The position numbers and the translations under genes were made by a program. A DNA stretch of 64,000 nt from Bradyrhizobium arachidis (GTDB lineage Bacteria > Pseudomonadota > Alphaproteobacteria > Rhizobiales > Xanthobacteraceae), in contig NZ_CP077970.1 of NCBI RefSeq assembly GCF_024758505.1, positions 2,604,001 to 2,668,000 of the forward strand. Reading direction: 5' to 3'. Positions 29,226 to 32,093 of this stretch are shown piece by piece; the stretch's first letter is position 1, and each line of letters begins with the position of its first letter. The notes below the pieces were generated by a model that had not been told where the DNA came from, did not search any database, and saw only the letters and a list, made by a program, of their open reading frames with translations.

Positions 29226-31820
29226 TCACGCCCTCTGCACAAAGCTGTCCACGACCTTCTTCTCGCCGGCCTTGTCGAAGGCGATGGTGAGCTTGTTGCC
29301 GTCGATCTTGACCACGCGGCCATAGCCGAATTTTTGGTGGAACACGCGGTCACCCAGCGCAAATTCCGAGGTCGTGCCGGTCGATTTGGCGACCAGTTCG
29401 CCCTCGATCGTCATCGGCCCGCGGCGGCGCGAGCCGAAGCTGCCGCCGAAGTCGGGCGAGGATGAGAACGACGAGGCCTCTTCCGCAAAGCTGCCGCGCC
29501 CGCCGCCACCACCTTGGCCGCGGTTGCGATTCGCCTGCGCCCGCTGCCAGCCCGGCGTCGTATAGCTGGAGCCGAAGGCCTCCATGTCGTCGAAGCGCGA
29601 GGCTCCGTAGCCGCCGGTGCCGCCCCAGGCCGAGCCGCCCTTGGATTCGGTGATCTCGACATTGGCCGCCGGCAGCTCGTCGAGGAAGCGCGACGGGATC
29701 GTGGTCGACCAGGTGCCATGGATGCGGCGGTTGGTCGCAAAATAGAGCTTTGCACGCCGCCGGGCGCGGGTCAGGCCGACATGGGCGAGCCGGCGCTCTT
29801 CCTCCAGCCCCGCGCGACCCTGTTCGTCCAGGGTGCGCTGGCTCGGAAACAGGCCTTCCTCCCAGCCCGGCAGGAACACGTTGTCGAATTCGAGCCCTTT
29901 TGCCGAATGCAGTGTCATCAGCGAGACGGCGTCCTCTTCGGAGCCGCCGTCGCGGTCCATCACCAGCGCGATGTGCTCGAGGAAACCTTGCAGGTTCTCG
30001 AACTCCTCCATGGAGCGAACGAGCTCTTTCAGGTTTTCGAGCCGGCCGGCGGCATCCGCCGAGCGGTCCTTCTGCCACATCTCGGTATAGCCGCTCTCGT
30101 CCAGCACGATCTGGGCGAGGTCGGTATGCGCGGTGACCTCGCGCTGGGCACGCCAGCGGTCGAATTGCGTCACGACTTCGCGCAAAGACCCGCGCGCCTT
30201 CGGCTTCAACTCGTCGGTCTCGACCACGGCGCGCGCCGCCTCGAACAGCGGGATGCGGCGCTTGCGAGCGTGGTCGTGCAGCATCTGCACGGTGGCGTCG
30301 CCCAGGCCGCGCTTGGGCACGTTGACGATGCGCTCGAAGGCGAGGTCGTCGGCCGGCGAGTTGATGACGCGCAAATAGGCCAGCGCGTCGCGGATTTCCG
30401 CCCGCTCGTAGAAGCGCGGGCCGCCGATCACGCGATAGGGCAGGCCGAGGGTGACAAAGCGGTCTTCGAACTCGCGCATCTGGTAGGACGCGCGCACCAG
30501 GATGGCGACCTCGTTGAGCTTGTCGCCCATGCGCTGGATCTGCTCGATCTCCTCACCGATCGCGCGCGCCTCTTCTTCCGAGTCCCACGCGCCGGTGACG
30601 GTGACCTTCTCGCCGTCCTCGTCTTCGGTGCGCAGCGTCTTGCCCAGCCGGCCTTCATTATGCGCGATCAGATGCGAGGCGGCGGCGAGGATGTGACCGG
30701 TCGAACGGTAGTTGCGCTCCAGGCGAATGACTTTTGCGCCGGGAAAGTCGTGCTCGAAGCGCAGGATGTTGTCGACCTCCGCACCGCGCCAGCCATAGAT
30801 CGACTGGTCGTCATCGCCGACGCAGCAGATGTTTTTGGTGGGAGCGTTTGCGCCAACCGTCATTGCCGCGTGCTCCGTCATTCCGGGGCGATGCGCAGCA
30901 TCGAACCCCATTGCGCTATCGCGCAATGTGGAATCTCGAGCTGTGGACTCATCTCCAGATTCCGGGTTCGGCTCTTCGAGCCGCCCCGGAATGACGGCCT
31001 TGGGTGAAGGCGCCTGCGACAACAGCCGCAGCCACAGATACTGCGCGACGTTGGTGTCCTGATATTCGTCGACCAAAATGTATTTGAAGCGCTGCTGATA
31101 CTGCCGGAGAATGTCCGGATGCTCGCGGAAGATCCGGATGTTTTCCAGCAGCAGATCGCCGAAATCGGCGGCGTTCAGGATCTTCAGCCGTTCCTGGTAA
31201 CTCGTATAGAGCTTGCCGCCCTTGCCGTTGGCGAACATTGCGGCTTCGCCCGAGGGCACCTGCGTTGGGCTCAGCCCGCGGTTCTTCCAGCCGTCGATCA
31301 GGCCGGCGAGCATGCGCGCGGGCCAGCGCTTGTCGTCGATATTTTCGGCCTGCAAGAGCTGCTTCAGCAGCCGGACCTGATCGTCGACGTCGAGCACGGT
31401 GAAGTTGGATTTGAGCTGCGCGAGCTCGGCATGGGTGCGCAGGATGCGGCCGCCGATGGAGTGGAAGGTGCCGAGCCACGGCATGCCTTCAACCGCCTGT
31501 CCCAGCATCTGGCCGAGGCGGTGCTTCATCTCGCGCGCGGCTTTGTTGGTGAAGGTCACCGACAGGATCTCGCCGGGGCGCGCGCGGCCCTGGCTCAAAA
31601 TGTGCGCGATGCGCGTCGTCAGCACGCGCGTCTTGCCGGTGCCCGCGCCCGCCAGCACCAGCACCGGTCCGTCCAGCGACTCGACCGCCTCGCGCTGCTC
31701 GGGATTGAGGCCGGTGAGATATTTCGGGCCCACCGAGGCGCGGGCACGCGCGGCGATGCCGCCGGCCGCGGGATGGTGGTCGGGTACGCTGTGGTTGGTG
31801 ATCTTGCTCGGCTCGGTCAT
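29226..31820 (-). CDS. uvrD: UvrD/PcrA-type DNA helicase carrying an in-frame palindromic insertion
   Basis: This helicase of about 864 residues has Walker A LAGAGTGKTR, Walker B VDEYQDTN, motif GDDDQSIYGWRG, motif LERNYRST, and later VSLMTLHSAKGLEF and VGLTRARRRAKL, the standard superfamily 1A set. Between DEYQDTN...LRLLSQ and NICCVGDDDQ the protein has about 55 extra residues that other UvrD proteins lack. They are encoded mainly by a 123-bp palindromic repeat (30875-30997). The C-terminal 150 residues are Gly/Ser-rich followed by a Tudor-like end. Starts at 31820, 31829 or 31838 are possible. Its role is DNA repair and replication restart. Confidence 0.93.
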   Translation of the reverse strand: MTEPSKITNHSVPDHHPAAGGIAARARASVGPKYLTGLNPEQREAVESLDGPVLVLAGAGTGKTRVLTTRIAHILSQGRARPGEILSVTFTNKAAREMKHRLGQMLGQAVEGMPWLGTFHSIGGRILRTHAELAQLKSNFTVLDVDDQVRLLKQLLQAENIDDKRWPARMLAGLIDGWKNRGLSPTQVPSGEAAMFANGKGGKLYTSYQERLKILNAADFGDLLLENIRIFREHPDILRQYQQRFKYILVDEYQDTNVAQYLWLRLLSQAPSPKAVIPGRLEEPNPESGDESTARDSTLRDSAMGFDAAHRPGMTEHAAMTVGANAPTKNICCVGDDDQSIYGWRGAEVDNILRFEHDFPGAKVIRLERNYRSTGHILAAASHLIAHNEGRLGKTLRTEDEDGEKVTVTGAWDSEEEARAIGEEIEQIQRMGDKLNEVAILVRASYQMREFEDRFVTLGLPYRVIGGPRFYERAEIRDALAYLRVINSPADDLAFERIVNVPKRGLGDATVQMLHDHARKRRIPLFEAARAVVETDELKPKARGSLREVVTQFDRWRAQREVTAHTDLAQIVLDESGYTEMWQKDRSADAAGRLENLKELVRSMEEFENLQGFLEHIALVMDRDGGSEEDAVSLMTLHSAKGLEFDNVFLPGWEEGLFPSQRTLDEQGRAGLEEERRLAHVGLTRARRRAKLYFATNRRIHGTWSTTIPSRFLDELPAANVEITESKGGSAWGGTGGYGASRFDDMEAFGSSYTTPGWQRAQANRNRGQGGGGGRGSFAEEASSFSSSPDFGGSFGSRRRGPMTIEGELVAKSTGTTSEFALGDRVFHQKFGYGRVVKIDGNKLTIAFDKAGEKKVVDSFVQRA
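30875..30997. repeat. palindromic repeat element inserted in frame inside uvrD (family 4)
   Basis: CCGTCATTCCGGGGCG (30875-30890) is an exact inverted match to CGCCCCGGAATGACGG (30982-30997). Between them are further stems: CATTGCGC/GCGCAATG, GGAATCT/AGATTCC and CGGCTC-TTC-GAGCCG. The total is 123 bp, exactly 41 codons, so the uvrD frame is kept and no stop codon is made. I recall very similar palindromes as abundant intergenic repeats in Bradyrhizobium. Confidence 0.8.
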
Positions 31821-32093
31821 GCGAATCATCGGCCCCACGATGGCACCGCGGGGGTGTGGAAGGGAGCCTTCATAGCAGGGATTACCGCCTATATGGGGCG
31901 GCGGGGAGGGTTTTTACAGACTTATCCGGCCGCGCAATCCCGCATCAAAGGCGAAATTTGTTCCTGCGCCGCCGGCAAATTTCCCGCACGCCCCGCTCGG
32001 AACCATCGTTTCGCAGTCGAGATTGTCTCAGCAAGCAAGGCGTGGCCTCAAGGTCGCGCCGATCGCAGACGAAATCGAGACGGAGGTGTGGCC

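Follow-up and report, generated by a model that had tools for sequence, protein, structure and literature searches.

The window, a stretch of 64,000 nucleotides of Bradyrhizobium arachidis contig NZ_CP077970.1, contains a uvrD/pcrA-type helicase gene, within which a palindromic element, here termed type A, occupies the loop that links motif II of the helicase to motif III. The features of the locus, in window coordinates, are as follows:

29226..31838, minus strand: uvrD/pcrA-type helicase ORF, 870 aa, open frame throughout
31050..31070, minus strand: motif II, DEYQDTN
30834..31013, minus strand: complete insert of the loop, 60 aa at residues 276-335, against 3 aa in the empty form
30875..30997, minus strand: A-type palindromic element, 123 bp, two CGTC-tagged units face to face
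30982..30997, no strand assigned: right terminal inverted repeat, 16 bp, exact
30959..30996, minus strand: REP-like unit 1, with CGTC tag, arms 30985-30992 and 30959-30966, and 18 nt between them
30909..30929, minus strand: 21-bp hairpin module, 7 codons, inside unit 2
30875..30890, no strand assigned: left terminal inverted repeat, 16 bp, exact
30857..30864, no strand assigned: third 8-base copy of the end, CCGTCATT, perhaps a relic
30795..30818, minus strand: motif III, GDDDQSIY

An earlier note on this DNA described a palindromic element of 123 bp whose 16-bp ends are exact inverted repeats, in frame in uvrD and between two ATPase motifs; this observation is confirmed, and the interpretation attached to it is partly supported. 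The ends, CCGTCATTCCGGGGCG, match exactly for 16 bp with a mismatch at base 17, the 870-aa frame is open, and motifs II (DEYQDTN) and III (GDDDQSIY), which flank the element, are undamaged. In uvrD sense, 30875-30997 reads VIPGRLEEPNPESGDESTARDSTLRDSAMGFDAAHRPGMTE, with unit 1 a clean CGTC-ATTCCGGG...CCCGGAAT; the 21-bp hairpin at 30909-30929 is missing from 4/4 other A inserts aligned, including that of the nearest relative (L032). As single-stranded DNA the element folds at -52.2 kcal/mol (z -10.7), a value equalled by 0/200 shuffles. A search of the whole window against Rfam at the gathering threshold returned zero families.

Sixty residues separate WLRLLSQ from NICCVGDDDQ in the window UvrD, against three in the empty form, so that about 57 are extra, where the earlier note gave about 55, mostly encoded by the element; 41 are contributed by the A element and 16 are of other origin. 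The 123 bp amount to 41 codons, from which the note took frame and function to be probably kept, and the frame is indeed open, but the tag-to-tag distance of 121 bases is no multiple of 3; it is the entire insertion that preserves the frame, and the count of 41 codons needs one extra bp at each end. Translation of the insert is putative, with the open frame and a pN/pS below 1 as indirect pointers. Alignment of the solved E. coli UvrD chain to the window protein ends at residue 237 and restarts at 240, and the placement of the loop follows from alignment to solved UvrD/PcrA chains, together with the topology of the RecA fold. The loop probably lies on the protein surface. Judging from the undamaged motifs and core, the helicase with its long loop probably still works.

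The expectation that the element is dispersed is borne out by 162 exact occurrences of the 14-base A end in the 9.43-Mb B. arachidis genome, with 0 for the reversed control. The whole element, as a 137-bp query, gave at least 70 blastn matches with 40/210 candidates scored, a figure that counts uvrD itself and counts some places twice (both strands); 59 A dimers lie outside uvrD in the fetched loci, and searches of plasmid records for type A returned no match.

Palindromic repeats of related build are already in print for this genus. CGTC-tagged REPs have been described in Bradyrhizobium (Di Nocera, De Gregorio, Rocco 2013, PMC3733652), where, in passages of that paper, CGTC-1 REPs feature an 8-bp stem beginning with AT, a 4-5 bp loop varying in length and composition in Bradyrhizobium, and a short unpaired tail that in most cases, not all, fits CCA, with dimers predominant and no dedicated transposase. 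The window element shares the CGTC tag and an 8-bp stem starting with AT (ATTCCGGG ... CCCGGAAT), and is likewise repeated, mostly intergenic and commonly dimeric (162 ends; 59 dimers); the trinucleotide after its arm is CTG, where CGTC-1 tails are mostly, though not always, CCA. It differs in the 18 nt between its arms, against a loop of 4-5 bp, and for this reason is said to resemble a dimer of CGTC-tagged REPs rather than to be one. Identification as a RAYT-mobilised GTAG REP was rejected, the tag being CGTC and the loci of the three Y1_Tnp (IS200/RAYT-like) genes of the same genome (L320-L322) containing 0 family A ends; other flanking repeats were looked for near these genes as plain hairpins. 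Passages of PMC3733652 also list repair genes containing REPs, among them a 'UvrD/REP helicase', an entry not tied here to any species, and the only site they give as common to two species is in recB of two Xanthomonas, other genes within a functional category being hit at different sites. The earlier statement that no such report was known for this group is incomplete or incorrect: CGTC REPs of Bradyrhizobium and REPs in repair genes have been published, and coding palindromes are a known phenomenon.

In relatives the loop is a different length. The possibility that UvrD proteins free of such inserts have an equally long linker is refuted by alignment, which shows a far shorter loop, mostly of 3 residues: in 24 genomes of the same order no UvrD match spans residues 278-329 of the window protein, and 53/72 readable loci from named records have the 20-residue spacing that corresponds to a 3-residue linker (80 loci kept of 578 found, 8 without an in-frame match). 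Given this short spacing and the E. coli UvrD alignment, the ancestral loop was most likely short. Within Bradyrhizobium, by contrast with these short forms, 40/41 loci have an in-frame repeat-type insert, the remaining one being the frame-broken L122; all 30 loci of the first set carry insert A, B or C, in some cases C beside an A remnant, and an insert is likewise present in each of the 120 proteins listed from 8000 found, labelled by peptide pattern as A in 112, C in 4, B in 3 and without label in 1. Named records place C in B. frederickii and B in B. elkanii, Rhodopseudomonas infernalis and a Pseudorhodoplanes MAG.

The element first noticed as one insertion in one gene is present as described, and is merely one occupant of a site used by several repeat types across the family. 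A search of 216 family genomes found UvrD in 213, and the loci read number 127, from 40 genera; by peptide pattern, 24/40 genera have at least one repeat-type insert in uvrD, 9/40 have the 3-residue loop only, and 7/40 have 10-82 loop residues of no assigned type, the loop spanning 3 to 229 residues across the loci read. The family table has two rows without a match, L122 and L356, the latter containing unread bases; the 66-locus insert set gave 65 in-frame matches (all but L122), and the set from other families 9/10 (all but L235). Among 120 genomes of the order, uvrD is split at the loop site in four from other families (G422, G440, G446 and G477), with inserts that look repeat-like in L231-L233 and not in L230, while in a class-wide sample of 134 genomes (129 with UvrD) no split at the site was found besides the window's own. 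Longer loops in which no repeat was recognised occur in Rhizobium alarense and two MAGs of the order (L265, L280, L289), which suggests that the loop tolerates extra length outside the family too.

Draft contigs stop at or inside the uvrD insert in G060, G235 and G148 (L361, L363 and L366), as would be expected of an insert made of assembly-breaking repeats. In the single-contig Bradyrhizobium genome G027 the ORF of L122 (G027:C1:2443531-2446123) is broken, the frame shifting across a C-type insert, and the break may be either real or a sequencing error. That the inserts as such are artefacts, produced by errors of assembly or sequencing or representing a coincidental linker, could draw on these contig breaks and this broken frame, but is hardly credible: contig breaks are what a dispersed repeat would cause, inserts are found in single-contig genomes, in 30/30 Bradyrhizobium loci and in 120/120 of the proteins listed of 8000 found, and the number of independent genomes makes the explanation very unlikely.

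The occupants of the site fall into several types, labelled A to I and recognised by peptide patterns. Besides A, these include B (SLPGLTRQSI...RRPGDD), C (SPRLRGEV...PHPDPLPVKDGERE), D (LRDAALRAAPQDE...HPEERGQSPRVSKGEA) and E (PSPLAGEG...PSPSRGEG), and each of types A-E is a dispersed repeat in genomes bearing it in uvrD, with at least 42 blastn matches for B in G021, 44 for C in G017, 32 for D in G074 (0 in the B. arachidis genome) and 43 for E in G105; these figures are matches, not copies, include uvrD and both-strand hits, and come from part of the candidates scored. In plasmid records, 17/17 places matching type C are without an annotated feature, the gene table being incomplete. Insert DNA clusters by type with partial similarity of C to E, A to A2 and B to G, and five is accordingly a number of types, not of proven separate origins. 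Several inserts are stacks: C stands next to an A remnant in L057, L060 and L119, A2+F+E make up the 103 residues of L115, D+F+B are joined in L354, and the largest insert (L353, G092) comprises G+B+B+A, with the B unit twice, in a single open frame of 229 residues. Against shuffles (rows L031 to L121), most long inserts fold far better and short unlabelled ones do not; the labelled inserts that fold poorly are L069 (z -1.6), L074 (z +1.0) and L094 (z +0.3), and L068 is a further labelled exception. A short motif like YDLADTF or SLEDTW lies beside different repeats in several genera (L068, L081, L090, L115, L355 and L357), and may either go back to one old relic common to them or be kept by selection for binding.

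Trees of the UvrD core point to repeated turnover at the site. On a 99-core tree with the insert left out, which excludes L122 (no in-frame match) and L234-L239, the type labels need at least 50 changes (minimum possible 15, shuffled mean 66.4), and the starred branches alone force minimum numbers of 6 (A), 8 (C), 5 (B), 6 (D) and 3 (E), where changes include losses and exchange besides new insertions. A 98-row tree, in which only 8 Bradyrhizobium loci are included, has a filled clade of 69 rows (support 98) made up of 43 repeat-type, 21 unlabelled, 3 small and 2 empty rows, so that 67/69 are longer than 3 residues, and an adjoining sister clade with the 3-residue loop in 16/16 rows, an emptiness that may reflect repeat supply. 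The two trees were built quickly and leave many forks open; in the 98-row tree the outgroup does not form one side of a branch, so that the root there is approximate.

Recombination may account for many of the label changes, because B inserts of different Bradyrhizobium species have common, apparently non-repeat, tails. Taken to its limit, this would mean few independent insertions, with one or two ancestral alleles per type swapped among species by homologous recombination at uvrD, and the interleaving of A, B and C labels on the UvrD tree, together with some A pairs whose insert pS is below the flank dS, agrees with such exchange. As a sole explanation it is nevertheless improbable, since swapping alone fails to yield different types in distant genera, stacked composites, or the inserts seen outside the family within the order.

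Whether other genes are hit was assessed in the B. arachidis genome with a codon-usage context test that recovers 239/290 true interior positions. The 30 best blastn places and the first 100 of the 162 ends gave 91 A sites, of which 87 were judged non-interior and four passed (uvrD, L015, L184 and L167); 0/33 B/C/E sites in the same genome passed. Three of the four were excluded by judgement although they had passed the filter: L015 looks antisense, its opposite strand having coding flanks that end in stops; L184 also looks antisense and would encode an Arg/Gly-rich peptide; and L167 is a lone 14-mer in an apparently ordinary enzyme gene. This leaves uvrD, in the one genome sampled, as the sole site of 91 for type A and 33 for B/C/E at which an intragenic copy is convincing. 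The main text of a Tn-seq paper (PMC8225791) contains no mention of uvrD or the helicase.

The use of one site by several repeat types is also what would be seen if the uvrD site were a preferred target of a mobilising enzyme, rather than a place at which insertions are filtered afterwards. No target consensus was found at the 82 outer flanks of genomic A ends, except a pyrimidine at -1, and unrelated repeats would all have to share a target; none of the 16 sister-clade rows is filled, and the loci of the three Y1_Tnp genes are free of family A ends. Directed insertion is, on these grounds, distinctly unlikely.

The inserts change quickly as protein. Pooled pN/pS is 0.69 for A inserts and 0.10 for their flanks (149 pairs, 18 A-bearing loci), as uncorrected proportions from non-independent pairs with an uncertain insert alignment, and in some A pairs insert pS is below flank dS. 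The frame in use has a distinct composition: in 73 labelled inserts it averages -3.6 net charge per 100 aa with 0.02% Cys, while the other five frames have 2.0-3.2% Cys and four of them lie at +12 to +20 charge, the sixth (-1) being likewise near neutral at -0.6. By acidity the used frame ranks first among six in 49/73 inserts and second in 24/73, and its mean is acidic for every one of the types A-E, between -2 and -4 net charge per 100 aa; these frame statistics are non-independent and inflated by shared descent, many A inserts descending from one. All 33 recognisable A entries are in the V-I-P phase. The 59 A dimers outside uvrD give stop-free reads in R-H-S for 73/118, in V-I-P for 78/118 and in S-F-R for 57/118, and since all three phases are often open there, the choice of phase is not forced by stops alone. 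In dimers with a tag-to-tag distance that is a multiple of 3, V-I-P is open in 1 read and the other phases in 26 and 24, which counts against a simple reading of the phase bias; the window copy escapes this closure because its tag-to-tag distance is 121 bases.

Acidity of the used frame in each of A-E, the single phase of A ends (33/33), the YDLADTF-like motif beside different repeats (L068, L081, L090, L115) and the rarity with which the filled clade has gone back to 3 residues (2/69 empty, 3 small) would all suit positive selection for a long, acidic, disordered loop, serving as a tether or partner-binding site, with repeats as its raw material. Such selection is a tentative alternative that appears unlikely, in view of a pN/pS near 0.7 in inserts, the lack of any motif seen in all inserts, and a loop length that spans 3 to 229 residues; loops of 7-10 residues within the filled clade (L343, L346, L348) argue against a strict need for a long loop. 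The insert peptide may be useful. The bolder proposal that UvrD turned a repeat landing site into a permanent, functional and fast-changing disordered tether beside its ATPase core, with unrelated repeats as interchangeable parts and the long loop selected and species-specific, is regarded as doubtful.

On balance the explanation considered probable, by a modest degree, is that non-autonomous palindromic repeats (REP/MITE-like) have in the motif II-III loop of UvrD a landing pad that perpetuates itself. One frame-keeping insertion would have been tolerated in a surface loop in an ancestor shared by Bradyrhizobium with its neighbours, creating dispensable in-frame DNA within a conserved gene, into which later repeats of whichever type was spreading could insert harmlessly, while copies in other genes would be purged. 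Selection would filter for frame, for freedom from stops and for a non-basic peptide, removing basic, cysteine-bearing peptides, and elements within the pad would erode by small in-frame indels, stack and be replaced. The landing pad fits the presence of several types at one site, their stacking and erosion, the start of filling by clade and the lack of a target consensus. The single site, the several dispersed types, their stacking, their open frames, the quick change of the protein and the lack of a second convincing intragenic copy among the sites sampled in this genome are direct observations; the founding event, the neutrality of the peptide, the mode of repeat movement, the surface position of the loop and the activity of the helicase with it are what we infer from them. 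Exchange of alleles by recombination probably works jointly with the landing pad.

Among known systems, Rickettsia palindromic elements (RPEs) occur in many genes of one genome, and their presence in conserved protein genes was reportedly the subject of work by Ogata in 2000 and 2002 and by Claverie and Ogata in 2003. The uvrD element is alike in being a short palindromic repeat, in frame in a conserved gene whose motifs are kept, and is unlike in that several repeat types use one site of one gene; the likeness drawn here is one of mode. That RPEs are palindromes read in frame is cited in passages of PMC6649704 and PMC3733652. Enterobacterial RU elements, MITE-like with open frames and found within assorted annotated genes (Delihas 2007, PMC2759123), also resemble the uvrD inserts, which are MITE-like repeats with open frames in a gene, but come, in passages of that paper, without mention of a recurrent site. 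In nematomorph mitochondria both arms of palindromes in coding sequence encode conserved residues, according to passages of PMC6649704; the uvrD insert, by contrast, is variable and made of dispersed repeats. Unlike the REP-containing genes that figure in passages of PMC3733652, a single uvrD site here serves several repeat types across 24 genera, with stacking. No account of a single uvrD site reused by several repeat types was found in the literature searched, consisting mostly of open papers among the best-ranked matches.

In-frame palindromic repeats have so far been known as scattered cases, where uvrD offers one site, several types and stacked relics, at which mobile DNA can be seen turning into protein: which frames survive, how fast the insert erodes, and whether an initial insertion encourages a further one. 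The loop lengths of one helicase form a natural series from 3 to 229 residues that tests the tolerance of the motif II-III loop, and a repeat-filled loop may be the reason why contigs of draft assemblies break at uvrD. If the tether reading were true, a core repair helicase would be held long-looped by selection, with a loop differing from species to species.
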